A stretch of 64,000 nt of DNA from Phycisphaeraceae bacterium (lineage in GTDB: Bacteria > Planctomycetota > Phycisphaerae > Phycisphaerales > UBA1924): contig JAHBXB010000002.1 of assembly GCA_019636655.1 (NCBI GenBank), positions 756,537-820,536 on the forward strand, in the 5' to 3' direction. Each line of letters opens with the position of its first letter. The first letter of the stretch is position 1. Position numbers and translations under genes: made by a program. Positions 41,498 to 51,876 of the stretch are shown piece after piece. The notes beneath the pieces were generated by a model, which searched no databases, was not told where the DNA came from, and worked only from the letters and a program-made list of their open reading frames with translations.

Positions 41498-42532
41498 TCA
41501 CGCACGCGGTGTTCGGGTTGACCGAACCGCCGTGCGTGCCCGCGCCTTGGGCGTCGCCCGCCGCGCCGGAAAGATCGCGGTGGACTGGCCGATCGCCTCG
41601 CCCAGCCGATGCGGGCCCTGCACGATGCGCTTGCAGGCGCTGGCGAGGTTGTCCTTGCTGAACTCGACGCCGATGAATCGGCGGCCGAGGGCGTGGGCGA
41701 TGACACCCGTCGTGCCCGAGCCGAGGAACGGGTCCATCACCAGTTCGCCGTCGTTGGAGCAGGCGCGGATCACCCGCTCCAGGTAGGCCTCGGGAAGCTG
41801 GTTGTCGTGGTTGGCCCGCCGCTCCTTGTTGTTGCCCTGGATGCGGCCCCAGAACTTGCCGTACCACACATCCATGGGCACCCGCATCCCGGGCGGCATG
41901 CCGTCCTTCTTGGAGATCGTGCGCGGGTCGAAGTAGGTCGTCGCGCGATCAGAGGGCTCAAGCACCGCGTCGGCGTTCCAGGTGTGCGCAGCGCCGGGCT
42001 TGACGAACCACAACGCGTGGACCTTGGAGTTGATGAACCGCGCCCGCGTGTTCTGCCCGAAGCGGTAGTGCCAGATGCACCAGTTGATCATGTCCAGCGC
42101 GGGCTGGGCCACGCCCGCCGAGCGAGCATCGGCCGGCTTCTTCAGGTGGCACACGATCTCCGCGGCGGTGTCGTCCGGGATATTGATCCAGAAGGCGCCG
42201 CCGGGCTTGAGTGCGGCGCGGCAGAGATCAAGCCAGCGGTACGTGAACTCCAGGTAATCGCCCCGCGGCATCGAATCGTCCCACTTGTCGTACGCGCGGT
42301 TCCAGTTGAACGGCGGATCCGCGAAGACCATGTCGACAGTCCCCGCGGCGCACTCCGGGATCGACAAGATGACCTCGCGGCAGTCGCCGTGGTAGAGCCG
42401 GGCGACCGCCCCGTTCGCGGGATGGGTCAGCGTGACGGGCTCGGCGGAGGCCGGAGCGCGGCGCGGGCGGGCCGGCGATGCGGGGGTGCCGTTGCGGCGC
42501 CGGTCGGAGTTGGAGCGGTTGAGGATCGTCAC
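41498..42532 (-). CDS. Site-specific DNA methyltransferase, N6-adenine/N4-cytosine type
   Basis: The 344-aa product has catalytic motif IV VFADPPFNWN (residues 69-78) before the AdoMet motif VMDPFLGSGTTGVIAHALG (~261-279). This gives the beta-class order. HGDCREVI and FIGVEFSKDNLASAC flank these motifs. A ~35-residue basic N-terminus and a basic C-terminal tail lie outside the core. It starts at GTG 18 bases after folC and is not near any restriction endonuclease gene, so it is an orphan methyltransferase, perhaps CcrM-like in role. The target sequence is unknown. Confidence 0.88.
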   Translation of the reverse strand: MTILNRSNSDRRRNGTPASPARPRRAPASAEPVTLTHPANGAVARLYHGDCREVILSIPECAAGTVDMVFADPPFNWNRAYDKWDDSMPRGDYLEFTYRWLDLCRAALKPGGAFWINIPDDTAAEIVCHLKKPADARSAGVAQPALDMINWCIWHYRFGQNTRARFINSKVHALWFVKPGAAHTWNADAVLEPSDRATTYFDPRTISKKDGMPPGMRVPMDVWYGKFWGRIQGNNKERRANHDNQLPEAYLERVIRACSNDGELVMDPFLGSGTTGVIAHALGRRFIGVEFSKDNLASACKRIVQGPHRLGEAIGQSTAIFPARRATPKARARTAVRSTRTPRA

Positions 42533-47286: not shown

Positions 47287-48234
47287 TCACCGCAGCGATC
47301 GCGTCACGCTCACCGCCGCGTACAGCCCCGCGACCCGCTCTCGCTCGAACACCGCCGGCGGATACGCCGGGTTCAGCGGCTGCAGGCGGATCATCTCGCG
47401 CCCCGCGCCGGAGGTCTCGAAGTACACCCGCTTGAACGTGGTCGGCTGGTCACCCGCCCCGTCGAGCCTCGCGAAGCAGTCCATCCCCGCCCGCACCACC
47501 CGCGCCGGCGAGAAGACCACGATGTCCCCCTCCCGATACTCCGGCTCCATCGAGTCCCCCACCACCCTCGCCGCGAACGCATCCGGATCGTCGACATCCG
47601 GCGTGCGCACATACTCGTCCGCCACCCGTGCGGGGTACCCCAGATCCGTGAACTCCGCCGGGTAGCCCGCGGCCACCGAGTTGATCAGCGGCACATCCGC
47701 CGATCGCGCCACACCCAGCGGCGCCAACTCCCCAACCCCCCCACCCCCTCCACCCGCCGGGTCCGGCGTGGCCCGGGCGATCAGTCGTTTCAGGTCCCCC
47801 GACCGGAACGCCGCATCCAGCGTTCCCGCTCCCCCCATGGCCCGCAGCACCTCGGCCAACTGCCTCGCCGCCCGCTCGCGCGACTGCAACCGCTCAACCT
47901 CCAGGCGGATCTGCGCCGGCGTCTCTTGCCACCGCGCCGCCTCCACCAGCCGCCCCGCCTCGAGCCCGAGCGCCCGCTCGATCCGGCCCAGCATGTCTTC
48001 ACTCGGCGGCGCCCCCCGCCGGCCCGTCTCGATCGCCGACAGGTACGCCTTCGAGCACTCCGCCAGGTCCGCCACTCGCTGCAGGGTCAGCCCCAGTTCC
48101 ACCCGCCGCGCCCGGAGCATCCGCCCCACCGCGGGCGCAGCCCCACCCGCTTCCACGGCTCCGCCCGCGGTTTCCGAGGTCACCCCGGACTCACCCAAGG
48201 ATCGATTCTGTGCGCCAAATCGCGACGATACCAT
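47287..48234 (-). CDS. CI/LexA-like repressor: XRE helix-turn-helix plus S24 peptidase
   Basis: The 315-aa product has an XRE-type HTH (GRMLRARRVELGLTLQRVAD then CSKAYLSAIETGRRGAPP, residues 37-76), a coiled linker and an S24 autopeptidase domain. The peptidase has a cleavage-site-like Ala-Gly in INSVAAGYP (189-190), the nucleophile Ser228 in VVGDSMEPEYREGDIVVF and the general-base Lys268 in TTFKRVY. This is the arrangement of phage CI and LexA-like repressors that self-cleave on RecA filaments. AAGGTG precedes the ATG at 48234. It is divergent from the operon encoding the HTH protein, ATPase-GNAT and terminase-like protein, whose promoter overlaps its own. It probably represses that operon until DNA damage. 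Confidence 0.9.
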   Translation of the reverse strand: MVSSRFGAQNRSLGESGVTSETAGGAVEAGGAAPAVGRMLRARRVELGLTLQRVADLAECSKAYLSAIETGRRGAPPSEDMLGRIERALGLEAGRLVEAARWQETPAQIRLEVERLQSRERAARQLAEVLRAMGGAGTLDAAFRSGDLKRLIARATPDPAGGGGGGVGELAPLGVARSADVPLINSVAAGYPAEFTDLGYPARVADEYVRTPDVDDPDAFAARVVGDSMEPEYREGDIVVFSPARVVRAGMDCFARLDGAGDQPTTFKRVYFETSGAGREMIRLQPLNPAYPPAVFERERVAGLYAAVSVTRSLR

Positions 48235-48243
48235 ACATACACC

Positions 48244-48280
48244 TTGCACAAAGTCTACAAACTGGTCATACTCATGTCAA
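48244..48280. promoter_or_regulatory. Interleaved divergent promoters between the S24 repressor and the terminase-like operon
   Basis: Minus strand: TTGACA (48280-48275), a 17-base spacer and TAGACT (48257-48252), leading to the repressor ATG at 48234. Plus strand: TTGCAC (48244-48249), a 17-base spacer and CATACT (48267-48272), leading to the operon. Each -10 lies inside the other's spacer, so the two RNA polymerases exclude one another. Confidence 0.7.
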
Positions 48281-48318
48281 TGTTCACTCATTCAAAGACA
48301 ACGGAGCGTGTCTGAGTG
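48270..48318. promoter_or_regulatory. Candidate operator half-sites of the S24 repressor
   Basis: ACTCAT occurs at 48270-48275, across the plus-strand -10, and at 48286-48291, a 16-base repeat distance. CACTCA (48285-48290) is mirrored by TGAGTG (48313-48318). The repeats overlap both promoter cores and the leader of the plus-strand operon, as expected for repressor-binding sites, but no perfect dyad like lambda OR is seen. Confidence 0.4.
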
Positions 48319-48344
48319 AGCGTCACGAGCCGGAGGGGCCACAA

Positions 48345-48872
48345 TTGCTGACACAATACGAACATACAGGATCGCCGCCCGACCGCAAGGGGAAAACGCG
48401 AAATCACCCGCCCCACCCGCCACTTCCACGAGCCCCTCGTCGCCCCGGACGGCTCGCGCCCGACCGCCTCGCCGACGACCCCGGCTCCGACGCCCGCTAC
48501 CACGTCCGCACCTCGGCCGAGACCCTGGTCGACCGCAGCGAGTTCCTCCCCGTCGACGAGGCCGCCCTCATCCGCGCGGTCTACGGCGAGGGGGTCGCCA
48601 TGACGATGCTGGCCCGGGCCGCCGGTCTCCCGGTCGCGATGATCCGCCGCCGCATCAAGAAGATCGTCCGACGCCTCCTCACCGACGAGTTCGCCTTCGT
48701 CGCGACCCACCTCGCCCAGTGGCCGCCGATCACCCGGCGCATCGCCCGCTGCTGTGTGCTCCACGGCCGGACGCTCCGCAGCGCCGCGCTCGAACTCGGG
48801 CTCACCGTCCACGTCGTCCGCCGGCACCGCGACATGGTCCTGACCCTCGCCGCAGGGAGCGTCGCGGCCTGA
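48345..48872 (+). CDS. Helix-turn-helix protein, first gene of the terminase-like operon (TTG start)
   Basis: The predicted 175-aa product starts at TTG because GGAGGGG lies six bases upstream; no in-frame ATG is available. After a ~60-residue basic/proline-rich N-terminus the rest is helical. Two HTH-like segments are visible: AVYGEGVAMTMLARAAGLPV plus AMIRRRIKKIVRRLL, and CCVLHGRTLRSAALELGLTV plus HVVRRHRDMVL. The pair resembles sigma-region-4-type or terminase small-subunit DNA recognition. It precedes the ATPase-GNAT gene by 24 bases. A DNA-recognition partner for the terminase-like protein is my inference; it could also be a transcription activator. Confidence 0.6.
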   Translation: MLTQYEHTGSPPDRKGKTRNHPPHPPLPRAPRRPGRLAPDRLADDPGSDARYHVRTSAETLVDRSEFLPVDEAALIRAVYGEGVAMTMLARAAGLPVAMIRRRIKKIVRRLLTDEFAFVATHLAQWPPITRRIARCCVLHGRTLRSAALELGLTVHVVRRHRDMVLTLAAGSVAA

Positions 48873-48896
48873 GGGAGCACCAAGGGAGGGGAGGGC

Positions 48897-50261
48897 ATGG
48901 ACACATCAGCACCATCGGAGCGGACGCTGCGCGCGGCGGCGATCATGGGCCTCGGCGCTCGCTTCAACGACATCGGGCTCAAGCCGCGCGCCGGCGCCGA
49001 CCGTCTCGCAGAGCGCCTCCTCTCCCTCCTCGCGGGGGAGGGTTCTGCCGAGGCGCCGCGCATCATCCACATCACCGGTCCAAGCGGCGCCGGCAAGTCG
49101 CTGACCCTCGACCGCGTCACCCGCGAACTGGGTGATCGGGCCGTGGTCTGCGCCGTACCGGTCGCTGCCCCGCACACCCGCGTGATCGATCTCTTCGCCT
49201 CACCTGTCGAGCATGCCCTGCGGCTCCTCGCGGCCGCGGGCATGGGCGAGGCCTGGGCCAGCGCCCGGCGATTCGCTGAACTCTCCGCCGGGGAGCGCGC
49301 CCGCGTCGCCCTGGGTGTGTCCATGGAGCAAGTCGGCCGTCTCCGCCAACACCGCACCGGCCGGCTCGCACTCATCGTCGACGAACTCGGCTCGGCCCTC
49401 GACGGCCCGACCGGCATCTCGGTCGCCGCGTCGCTGCGCCGGTGGGCGCTCCGGGAGGGTGCGATCGACATCATCGCGGCGGGCGTGCGACGGGATGTGG
49501 GGCCGGCCATCGGCGCGGACTGGGTTGCCACGATGGATCTGGGCGGAGTGTTCCGCCTCCAACCGGGGCGCGCCCTCGCGATCCCTGCCGACCCGGGCGA
49601 GATCACCATCTCGCCGGGCTCCGCGTGCGACTTCCGCGCCCTGGCGATGTTCCACTACCGCGCCGGGCCGCCGCGGGGCGTTGTCCGTGTGCTGACGGCC
49701 CGCGCCCGCTCCGGCCGAACCGTCGGCGTCCTCACCGTCTCGATGCCGGTCCTCAACGCGACGTGGCGCGAACAGGCATGGCCCGGATGGCTCGCGCCGC
49801 TGGACCGCCGCGCCCGCGCCGTGGCCATCAACGACTCGCTCCGCGTGATCTCCCGCGTCATCGTCCATCCCGCCTACCGCGGGCGCGGCATCGCGCGACG
49901 GCTCGTCCGGACCTACCTCGACCACCCGCTCACGCCCCGCACCGAGTCGCTCGCGGCGATGGGCTGCGCGTGCCCCTTCTTCCGCGCCGCGGGCATGCGC
50001 GAACTGGACCCGGGTGAGTCACGCCGGGACCGGTCGCTGCGACACACGCTCGCGGCGGTGGGAATCGAGCCATGGCGGCTCTCCGACGCCGGCGCGATCG
50101 ATGCCGGCCAACTCGACCACCCCAGCGTGGAGCGGGCGCTCCGCGCCTGGGCCCGCGACTCGCGCGCGACCTCGCGCCACGCCGCGGCGGACCCGCGCTC
50201 ACTTCTCCGCCTGGCAGGCGAATCACTGGAACGGGGCATGAGGGTCTACGTCAGCGGCTGA
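48897..50261 (+). CDS. ABC-type ATPase fused to a GNAT acetyltransferase-like domain (COG2401-like)
   Basis: The 454-aa protein has an ATPase half and a GNAT half. The P-loop is IIHITGPSGAGKSLTLDRV (residues 56-74). An ABC signature-like LSAGERARVALG (129-140) and a Walker B LALIVDELGSALD (157-169) follow. From ~240 a GNAT domain contains VISRVIVHPAYRGRGIARRL (residues 317-336) and ESLAAMGCACPFFRAAGM. This combination matches what I remember as COG2401. The GNAT part also resembles Mom-type DNA-modifying acyltransferases. GGGAGGGGAGG precedes the ATG. A small GC hairpin (50254-50268) overlaps the stop. It lies between the HTH and terminase-like genes in one operon. A role in ATP-driven DNA or protein modification is inferred. 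Confidence 0.78.
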   Translation: MDTSAPSERTLRAAAIMGLGARFNDIGLKPRAGADRLAERLLSLLAGEGSAEAPRIIHITGPSGAGKSLTLDRVTRELGDRAVVCAVPVAAPHTRVIDLFASPVEHALRLLAAAGMGEAWASARRFAELSAGERARVALGVSMEQVGRLRQHRTGRLALIVDELGSALDGPTGISVAASLRRWALREGAIDIIAAGVRRDVGPAIGADWVATMDLGGVFRLQPGRALAIPADPGEITISPGSACDFRALAMFHYRAGPPRGVVRVLTARARSGRTVGVLTVSMPVLNATWREQAWPGWLAPLDRRARAVAINDSLRVISRVIVHPAYRGRGIARRLVRTYLDHPLTPRTESLAAMGCACPFFRAAGMRELDPGESRRDRSLRHTLAAVGIEPWRLSDAGAIDAGQLDHPSVERALRAWARDSRATSRHAAADPRSLLRLAGESLERGMRVYVSG

Positions 50262-50292
50262 AAGCCGCATTTCAAACCAAAGGGGGGAACCA

Positions 50293-51876
50293 ATGACCAG
50301 CCAGCCGATGCTTGAACCCGTCGATACCGACCTCGGGCCGCCGCCCGCGACGCCAGACGCTCTGCACGAATGGCTCGAAGTGCACGCGGGCGTGAGCGTG
50401 CCGCGCCGGGCCCTGCTCGCCGCGAGCGACGCCCCCTTCGACTACCTGCTGCACACGTACTTCGAGGGACGGACGTTCCCGTCCGAATCCGGCCCGTCCG
50501 ACGCGGACGGCGCGAGCCACCTCACCGAGCCCGCCCCCGCTCGCGGCCCGGCGGACTGCGTCGTCTGGGCCAGCCGCGGCGGGGGCAAGACCTTCCTCGG
50601 TGCCGTCGCGACGATGCTCGACCTCGTGCACAAGCCCAGCATCCAGGTCCGCATCCTCGCGGGGAGCGTGGAGCAGGCCCAGCGGATGCACACCCACCTG
50701 CGTGCCCTCTTCGAACGCCCCGCCCTCGCCCGCCTCGTGGAGGGCAAACTCACCTCCCGGCGCATCGCCCTGACCAACGGCTCGTGCGCCGAGGTGATGG
50801 CCTCGTCGCAGGCCTCCGTGCGTGGCACCCGCGTGCAGAAGGTCCGGTGCGACGAGGTAGACCTGTTCGACCGCGACGTCTGGACCGCCGCCCAGTTGAC
50901 GACCATGTCCAAGGCCATCCCCGGCCCCTGGGGCCGGCGCGTCCGGGGCTCCGTCGAAGCCCTCAGCACCATGCACATCCCGATGGGGCTCATGTGGCAC
51001 GTCGTGGCCGACGCCGCCCGCGCGGGCGACACCCCGCACCGCCAGCGCCGGCTGCTTCGCTGGGGTGTGGTAGACGTGCTGGAGCACTGCGGCGACGAGC
51101 ACCGCTGCGAGTCCTGCCCGCTCTTCGAGGAGTGCGGCGGCGCGGCCAAGCCCGGGCGAGGCGTCGGCCGCGGGTCCGGACACCTGCCGGTGCACGATGC
51201 GATCGTGATGAAGTCCCGCGTCAGCCGGGAGACCTGGGAAGCAGAGATGCTCTGCCTCCGCCCCTGCCGCTCCGGCTGCGTCTACGAGGAGTTCGATCCC
51301 GAGGCGCACACCTACGACGACGGCGCTCCCGCGCCCGGGCCCGTCGAGTCCGCGACGACGATCGTCGCCGGCATGGATTTCGGTTTCCGCGCCCCCACGG
51401 TGGTCCTGCTCGGCGCCGTCGATCAAGCCGGCGTGCTGCGCATCTTCGATGAACACATCGCCGCGGGCCTGACGCTGGACCGTCACATCGATCTGCTGCG
51501 GGGCGGCCGCTGGCCCCGGATCGACTGGATCGGCGCCGACCCGGCGGGCAACCAGACCAACGACCAGACCGGCGTCAGCAACGTCTCGCTCCTTCGGCGC
51601 GCCGGGCTGCGCATCCGGGCCCGGCGCTCCGGCCTCCACGAGGGGCTCCTGCTCGTCAAGGCCCGCCTCAGGCCCGCCCTGGGCCCAGCCCGCCTGCTCG
51701 TCCACCGCCGCTGCACCGGCCTGATCGAGTCGCTCGCGAAGTACCACTACCCGCCCGACCGGCCCGAGGCGACCGCGCCGGAAAAGGACGGCAGCGACCA
51801 CGCGGCCGATGCGCTGCGGTACCTCGTCCTCAACCTCGATGCGCCCTTCAGGACCACCGTGCGGAGTTACCTGTGA
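50293..51876 (+). CDS. Terminase large subunit-like DNA-packaging ATPase/nuclease
   Basis: The 527-aa protein has a terminase ATPase (Walker A VVWASRGGGKTFLGAV, residues 90-105; Walker B VRCDEVDLF, 184-192; coupling-like region after it). A C-terminal RNase H-like nuclease follows, with its three acidic sites in place: AGMDFGF (Asp362), IGADPAGN (Asp416) and DGSDHAADALRYLV (Asp502/506). Between the two domains is a four-Cys insertion, CGDEHRCESCPLFEECGG (Cys266, 272, 275, 281), that could bind zinc or an Fe-S cluster. AGGGGGGAA precedes the ATG. No portal, capsid or tail gene follows; the next gene is a convergent OsmC. The enzyme looks intact. Its job outside a phage is unknown. Confidence 0.82.
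   Translation: MTSQPMLEPVDTDLGPPPATPDALHEWLEVHAGVSVPRRALLAASDAPFDYLLHTYFEGRTFPSESGPSDADGASHLTEPAPARGPADCVVWASRGGGKTFLGAVATMLDLVHKPSIQVRILAGSVEQAQRMHTHLRALFERPALARLVEGKLTSRRIALTNGSCAEVMASSQASVRGTRVQKVRCDEVDLFDRDVWTAAQLTTMSKAIPGPWGRRVRGSVEALSTMHIPMGLMWHVVADAARAGDTPHRQRRLLRWGVVDVLEHCGDEHRCESCPLFEECGGAAKPGRGVGRGSGHLPVHDAIVMKSRVSRETWEAEMLCLRPCRSGCVYEEFDPEAHTYDDGAPAPGPVESATTIVAGMDFGFRAPTVVLLGAVDQAGVLRIFDEHIAAGLTLDRHIDLLRGGRWPRIDWIGADPAGNQTNDQTGVSNVSLLRRAGLRIRARRSGLHEGLLLVKARLRPALGPARLLVHRRCTGLIESLAKYHYPPDRPEATAPEKDGSDHAADALRYLVLNLDAPFRTTVRSYL

Follow-up and report, generated by a model that had tools for sequence, protein, structure and literature searches.

A terminase module without recognised head genes, very probably fixed in the chromosomes of the planctomycete class Phycisphaerae

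The DNA analysed here (the window) is a 64,000-nucleotide stretch of contig JAHBXB010000002.1 from a Phycisphaeraceae bacterium, and our subject is a four-gene unit between its pdxJ and osmC genes that ends in the gene for a phage-type terminase large subunit (TerL). A LexA/CI-type repressor of the S24 family lies on the minus strand (47287–48249). Divergent from it, on the plus strand, are the genes for a helix-turn-helix (HTH) protein resembling sigma-70 region 4 (48345–48872), an ABC-type ATPase fused to a GNAT acyltransferase (48897–50261), and TerL, a packaging ATPase joined to an RNase H-fold nuclease and carrying a cysteine cluster (50293–51876). The original prediction, made from the letters alone, had named this set with an intact TerL, and family searches and catalytic residues bore it out. 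The gaps of 24 bases (48872–48897, between the HTH and ATPase-GNAT genes) and 31 bases (50261–50293, between ATPase-GNAT and TerL) were reproduced from the coordinates of the open reading frames, and the proposed G-rich ribosome-binding sites were seen before the HTH gene (GGAGGGG, 48332–48338), ATPase-GNAT (48883–48896) and TerL (50280–50289). For the HTH gene, the likeliest start is the TTG at 48345, behind GGAGGGG. The gene positions stood as given, except for the repressor start, where codon usage makes the ATG at 48120 (277 residues) more likely than the GTG at 48249. Between the divergent genes, the putative repressor operator was placed by position only at 48282–48299, with no strand assigned; the palindrome GTTCAnnnATnnnTGAAC is present there in degenerate form.

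The four proteins were assigned by Pfam and PHROGs matches. The repressor matched Peptidase_S24 (2.4e-17), HTH_31 (1.5e-11) and phrog_4 (8.5e-28). The HTH protein matched Sigma70_r4 slightly below the cut-off (4.2e-5); the second half of its counterpart in the relative L173 resembles the phage antiterminator Q, with weak matches to Phage_antitermQ (2.5e-5) and phrog_79 (6.8e-5). ATPase-GNAT, described originally as COG2401-like, matched AAA_16 below the cut-off (8.6e-7), Acetyltransf_1 and Acetyltransf_10 above it, and phrog_11143 and phrog_886, and the invariant GNAT residues are present. TerL matched Terminase_6C at the cut-off and phrog_2 at 5.3e-15.

The ten flanking proteins of the window are an N6/N4 DNA methylase, a Mur ligase, a DapA-type synthase, an acetyltransferase, a DinB-like protein, PdxJ, OsmC, a kinase with tetratricopeptide repeats, a small HTH protein and a phosphoesterase. 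Family searches found no head, tail, integrase or lysis families among these ten, in line with the ordinary flanks and missing structural phage genes described originally. The methylase gene (41501–42532, minus strand) lies ∼5 kb from the module and shows no sign of belonging to it.

TerL retains the residues of a working terminase. In an alignment of 143 rows, which includes the window and its own copy (L001), K99, T100, D187, E188, T226, D362 and D416 are identical in all rows, G98 and S225 are each present in 142, and D502 and D506 are present in 140 with gaps in the other three. The Walker A lysine, the Walker B Asp-Glu pair, the coupling threonine and the RNase H nuclease aspartates expected of a functional TerL are thus all in place. 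A structure model of moderate confidence (mean pLDDT 74) gave D6E (2.8e-16) and the T4 gp17 terminase (1.7e-12) as top matches, with low whole-chain TM-scores. The protein also carries a cysteine cluster at residues 266–281, in which C272, C275 and C281 are identical in the 143 rows and C266 is invariant in a separate 20-row alignment; the cluster is common to viral relatives and is possibly a zinc site. In one relative (L085, genome G343), TerL is split into two pieces by an in-frame stop.

Among the 40 closest TerL pairs computed, some rows of which repeat one genome, dN/dS was 0.048–0.205, a range that indicates purifying selection. In the TerL tree, the eight family labels require seven label changes, which is the minimum, compared with 17.5 in shuffles; judged from this tree, inheritance of TerL is mainly vertical and follows family lines.

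The window's own genome contains a single TerL match. Within its GTDB family, TerL was found in 150 of 163 genomes, and in 107 of the 112 of good quality. A wider sample of the phylum (392 genomes) gave 56 matches: 10 in the same family (the window's genome included), 11 elsewhere in the order (one of them, G409, a weak match of 78 residues), 10 in other orders of the class and 25 weaker ones outside the class. Genomes listed without a match numbered 10 for the order and none for the other orders of the class; 316 further genomes without a match are not itemised. In a scan of named genomes, 332 stretches encode a relative of the window's TerL. The titles of the best 80 of these 332 are mostly Phycisphaerae, Phycisphaerales, Sedimentisphaerales or plain Planctomycetota, and three others among the 80 (Blastopirellula, Kuenenia and Planctomycetales) may be mislabelled bins.

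To describe the module across the class, profiles of its genes were run on 40 neighbourhoods chosen for long contigs and spread; TerL was the seed of these neighbourhoods, so its counts follow by construction. In 20 loci of the window's family, the window itself not counted, we found S24 in 17, HTH in 20, ATPase in 19, GNAT in 19, a ParB-like protein in 10 (mostly remnants of ∼60 residues), the terminase small subunit (TerS) in one and TerL in 20; the TerS profile search therefore detected nothing in 19 of the 20. In 10 loci from other families of the order, the corresponding counts were 8, 10, 9, 9, 9, 10 and 10. In seven loci from other orders of the class they were 1, 4, 4, 4, 2, 3 and 7, and for the three loci without a nearby GNAT the gene was found elsewhere in the genome. 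PHROGs supplied names for the relatives: phrog_723 for the ParB-like protein (L080), phrog_2538 for TerS (L184) and phrog_2 for TerL. Taken together, these profiles show a probable ancestral set in which S24 is divergent from HTH, ATPase, GNAT, ParB-like, TerS and TerL genes. In the window's operon, ATPase and GNAT are fused (they are two genes in most relatives), and neither ParB nor TerS is part of it. GNAT is present upstream in 26 of the 42 loci for which 8 kb of upstream sequence was available.

GNAT was found in 13 of 15 TerL-positive genomes compared with 4 of 20 TerL-negative genomes (E ≤ 0.001; p = 1.3e-4, Fisher test on chosen, not random, genomes). Two of the four TerL-negative cases (G026 and G093) are modules cut by a contig end; the other two (G510 and G409) are short, weak matches, and one variant of the test drops them as generic GNAT. 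G409 was counted as TerL-negative despite its 78-residue match, which has an E-value of 8.6e-4 and contains a stop. In five genomes, GNAT is sited away from TerL with both kept, and in three of these the two are ∼29–33 kb apart on the same contig. Judged from such matches, the module genes tend to go missing jointly.

Phages carry a closely similar block. In the annotated gene order of Pseudomonas phage nickie, Salmonella phage SSU5 and Rhizobium phage RHEph10, two ParB-like genes are followed by ATPase, GNAT, a TerS candidate, TerL and then the portal gene. An annotated portal follows the block in nickie and RHEph10; in SSU5 the block spans the ends of the linear record and no gene is annotated as portal. 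The module profiles matched the ATPase, GNAT, ParB and TerL of these phages, so that four families are common to the two arrangements, and the nickie-type GNAT occurs in thirty phage records, duplicates included. The arrangements differ in that ParB precedes the ATPase in the phages, whereas it stands behind GNAT in the class module, and in that the phage block continues into portal and capsid genes, whereas the module ends at TerL, is chromosomal and appears to be vertically inherited. A scan of viral contigs with ATPase-GNAT gave no match. The same scan with TerL gave 58 loci, in many of which TerL is divided between two genes, and a direct phage ancestor was not identified among them. In many of the related viral contigs (L232–L275), nuclease and ATPase are encoded separately and the nuclease gene comes first.

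A similar pair was found in a planctomycete family outside the class (f29), where a fused ATPase-GNAT directly precedes TerL (403–424 residues) in 12 of 13 loci. A protein of 68–84 residues precedes the pair in 11 of the 13 and one of 74–95 residues follows it in 10. The f29 TerL keeps the Walker A, catalytic Glu and nuclease Asp motifs, with Cys usually replacing the Walker B Asp. None of the families listed (25 of 27) for 79 neighbouring f29 proteins is of the head, tail or integrase kind. By gene content, the class Phycisphaerae and f29 are two lineages with the same predicted ATPase-GNAT and TerL pair, arising from one domestication or two. The protein of 74–95 residues right after TerL (L129–L140 and L099) has a hydrophobic segment, seen by eye in L099, and could be a membrane partner.

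We searched for head genes both host-wide and beside the module. PF04860 (portal) was above the cut-off in none of 18 genomes, its three weaker matches all falling at lambda-type portals, and PF05065 (capsid) was found in none of 18. Neither phrog_12 (portal) nor phrog_145 (portal) was found in 22 genomes, and phrog_145 was also absent from 38 further class genomes, while the positive genome G531 did match. The capsid family phrog_212 was found in none of 22 genomes, without any positive control matching. The lambda-type portal PF05136 was found in 11 of 28 genomes, the window's not among them. By eye, two of the three such loci inspected are ordinary prophages carrying a GpA-like terminase; the third is unclassified. 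None of these six portal and capsid families was found in the window's genome, where diverged families are possible. Closer to the module, 85 of 175 neighbouring proteins were scanned from 35 class loci; they contained no portal, capsid, terminase or integrase family, and two single matches to minor-tail families (phrog_382 and phrog_329). Two lambda-portal prophages from different families (L104 in G522 and L105 in G153), each with a GpA-like terminase, look very much alike by eye, a likeness that suggests recent transfer.

These results separate the module from known phage-derived elements. A prophage would have an integrase and structural genes around the terminase, and none were seen in the window, class or f29 neighbourhoods scanned, apart from the two single minor-tail-family matches in the class. 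A satellite of the phage-inducible chromosomal island type would be mobile and carry an integrase or attachment sites; here the tree is congruent with the families and no integrase was found among the neighbours scanned, in a search for integrase families and not for attachment sites. Gene transfer agents of the RcGTA type have a domesticated phage terminase and are inherited vertically, and the module resembles them in both respects and in the signature of purifying selection. It differs from them in that no capsid or portal of the six families tried was found to be inherited with the terminase, and in that TerS went undetected in most of the window's family. A known anti-phage system was not recognised by PADLOC, which gave weak matches to the HTH and ATPase parts only (mad3, 5.3e-7, for ATPase-GNAT; capH, 7.3e-8). 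Searches of the open-licence PMC literature turned up no account of a terminase module lacking a capsid, nor of a conserved Phycisphaerae terminase.

The repressor retains the features of a LexA/CI-type switch, namely an HTH domain, the Ala-Gly cleavage site and the catalytic Ser and Lys. In an alignment of 26 repressors, from which the truncated repressor of L078 was left out, Ala194-Gly195, Ser233 and Lys273 (320-residue numbering) are kept in 25 rows, and only L062 is without them. In this repressor family, such residues mean RecA-stimulated self-cleavage. The 18-base palindrome GTTCAnnnATnnnTGAAC was recovered from 25 intergenic regions between repressor and HTH genes, with that of L061 (1206 bases) left out; the best of eight motif runs scored 316, compared with 140–159 for three shuffled controls of one start each. 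Two copies ∼30 bases apart are present in several genomes.

Searching eight whole genomes with the palindrome gave 31 matches compared with eight for a reversed-pattern control. Seven of the 31 are at the module, in G037 (0 mismatches; also on the other strand), G001 (1), G098 (2), G108 (2, both strands) and G095 (3). The module site is the best of the genome in the first four of these; in G095 four other sites equal it, each with 3 mismatches. The 24 off-module matches include the best G016 site (2 mismatches), the single G146 site and both G000 sites. A locus could be given for 23 of the 24, and 14 of these lie within called genes and nine outside. The repressor switch is therefore probably mainly local, with room for further targets, or a second operon, that it may also control. 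The nine sites outside called genes (L306, L309, L312, L313, L320, L321, L325, L330 and L331), five of which have a gene start within 300 bases, are possible further targets of the repressor.

ATPase-GNAT suggests what might be done to the DNA. Modelling of the GNAT domain gave a GNAT fold with a mean pLDDT of 82 (two of five runs, 64–69), and a search of BFVD with this model returned a phage Mom protein at rank 5 of the viral matches. Homologues of the GNAT gene in some phages are annotated as ‘ABC-type ATPase fused to a predicted acyltransferase domain’ or as ‘MK0520 protein’. A His-Tyr motif may be common to Mom and the module GNAT. No module protein matched the Mom family by sequence in Pfam, PHROGs and further family searches. 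The prediction that a GNAT enzyme with an ABC ATPase modifies bases is said to originate with Iyer et al. in 2013. According to PMC7824862, a GNAT enzyme coupled to an ABC ATPase is predicted to add an acyl group to a nucleobase of DNA; Tenacibaculum phage pT24 is the phage named there. The same domain pair, an ABC-type ATPase coupled to a GNAT domain, is present here (the modified base itself is a prediction), and the ATPase of L173 matches a pT24 gene, possibly the one named in that source, at 1e-10. Unlike the system as outlined there, the present pair is tied to a terminase and fixed in host chromosomes; most of the window's order has it under a CI-type switch, and much of the class has ParB and TerS alongside. 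The Mom-type momylation systems with fused endonucleases, also outlined in PMC7824862, are alike in GNAT fold and in the logic of modifier plus nuclease, and differ in that the nuclease of the module is a terminase.

We are highly confident about what the module is: a phage packaging-initiation block, comprising a CI-type switch, a late-regulator-like HTH protein, ATPase, GNAT, ParB-like protein, TerS and TerL, without the portal and everything beyond it, fixed in the chromosomes of a planctomycete class by mainly vertical descent. What it does is less certain. The chances seem evenly divided on whether it is a capsid-free, damage-inducible machine for DNA processing or defence, consisting of a base-marking enzyme and a viral motor domesticated in Phycisphaerae and retained in f29 in a form reduced to the ATPase-GNAT and TerL pair. 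The best overall explanation, which we advance tentatively and somewhat short of an even chance, is a domesticated, damage-switched device for DNA marking and terminase action that would work capsid-free. Gene content, conservation, switch and catalytic residues, the operator motif and the failure to find the portal and capsid families tried are observations made here. What chemistry is done, on which substrate, in what sequence and to what advantage (on phage DNA, on damaged DNA or on the chromosome as a whole) is what we infer. Marking plus cutting is favoured over packaging because ATPase-GNAT stays beside TerL in two lineages and because TerS and head genes were not found.

The following chain of events is proposed, the whole of it about as tentatively. 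The S24 repressor would keep the divergent promoter off until DNA damage or phage attack gave rise to activated RecA, whereupon the repressor would cleave itself. The HTH protein would then raise expression of the operon. ATPase-GNAT would mark a DNA base with an acyl group, guided by the ParB-like protein if there is one, and TerL, as an ATP-driven DNA translocase and nuclease, would cut or process DNA according to the mark. The outcome would be an inducible modify-and-cut device acting on phage DNA or on the damaged chromosome, and not the filling of capsids.

Several observations weigh against this interpretation. The linkage of the genes is imperfect: G150 and G378 have TerL without GNAT, and 16 of the 42 loci with 8 kb of upstream sequence show no other module gene there (E < 1e-6). 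The name TerS depends on the phrog_2538 match of L184 (1.4e-7), the candidate in L081 having no TerS match, and the TerS profile did not match the TerS candidates of phages nickie, SSU5 and RHEph10. The S24 gene is adjacent in 17 of 20, then 8 of 10, then only 1 of 7 neighbourhoods going outward through the class. The window's own operator copy is degenerate (8.8 bits, chance level) and is outscored at two other places in the window. In PDB, the GNAT model is closest to ordinary acetyltransferases, Mom being one of many viral matches, and the substrate of GNAT may be a protein or small molecule. With nuclease and modifier both repressed, the classical self-protection would be absent when the nuclease appears.

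The original prediction had held that the unit is not simple decay, and the invariant catalytic residues, the dN/dS range and the family-congruent tree uphold this. Its gene neighbourhood was also found to be co-conserved across the class among mostly ordinary chromosomal genes; the class loci gave no support for the reverse outcomes, that the trio is always embedded in complete prophages or that its genes are not co-conserved. It is thus very improbable that the module is a decayed prophage or phage satellite that is frequent by chance, even though all its genes have phage relatives and its location varies between genera, with two orientations seen. The module is not a prophage scrap because TerL is found family-wide (107 of 112 good genomes) and across the class, is under apparent purifying selection and has a tree that follows families; the decay reading is already contradicted. 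The neighbours scanned in the class (85 of 175), with no portal, capsid, terminase or integrase family and two minor-tail matches only, speak against it as well. The idea of a DNA-damage-induced module for processing, packaging or defence has fared unevenly: the repressor is of a damage-responsive type, and the part of the idea concerning gene transfer agents has been weakened.

That part survives as a split gene transfer agent, in which damage would induce TerL to pack host DNA into capsids from a diverged head cluster elsewhere. Gene transfer agents in other organisms can be spread over several loci, and the vertical inheritance, intact TerL, phage-like regulation and excess of off-module operator-like sites (24 of 31, compared with 8 for the reversed-pattern control) would all suit such an agent. 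We nevertheless consider it unlikely, because the six portal and capsid families were not found in the window's own genome and TerS was undetected in most of the family (19 of 20 loci); the lambda-type portals seen in 11 of 28 genomes were not found in the window's, and 14 of the 23 off-module sites lie inside genes. Rather improbable, too, is interference with phage packaging, whereby TerL and ATPase-GNAT induced by infection would compete with, or mis-process, a phage genome as it is packaged. The parts do derive from phage packaging blocks, and a repressor of this type is expected to answer phage-caused damage; class-wide retention with no sign of fast turnover (dN/dS 0.048–0.205) and the weak PADLOC matches, confined to HTH and ATPase parts (mad3 at 5.3e-7 for ATPase-GNAT), argue the other way. 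Self-destruction triggered by the SOS response, with induced TerL shredding the chromosome of badly damaged cells, would account for a repressor with self-cleavage residues and an operator ahead of a nuclease operon. It gives no reason for two lineages to have kept ATPase-GNAT in particular beside TerL, and we regard it as improbable to a marked degree.

In architecture the module appears to be new, and from a prophage, a gene transfer agent and a satellite alike it is set apart by at least one of the features examined. Should a capsid cluster lie hidden in the genome, the module would become a variant of gene transfer agent. Cells have tamed phage tails, as tailocins and secretion systems, and whole particles, as gene transfer agents. 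If marking plus cutting is correct, a headless packaging motor put to cellular use would add a third kind of phage domestication, the terminase would gain a job outside virions, and the predicted DNA modification by ATPase-GNAT would gain a cellular setting. It would also account for a unit whose TerL has been retained by 150 of 163 genomes in a single family. With 332 stretches of named genomes encoding a relative of this TerL, a terminase gene alone is no prophage marker.

The chromosomal setting of the module varies across the class. In 10 of the 20 loci of the window's family, the module adjoins the same two host genes (c5 and c4). At this site it is inverted in L060, L061, L067 and L070 relative to L062, L063, L066, L074, L078 and L079, and the four inverted loci cluster together weakly in the TerL tree (90/61). 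In Sedimentisphaerales-like relatives, the module is dispersed among housekeeping genes. A gene named by eye as rpiB lies inside the module, upstream of TerL, in L091, L092, L093, L156, L159 and L185, and an SDHAG motif is present upstream in 8 of 67 loci. Another gene was named arginase-like, likewise by eye. Genes named by eye as aspS and coaD come after the module in several Sedimentisphaerales-like loci.

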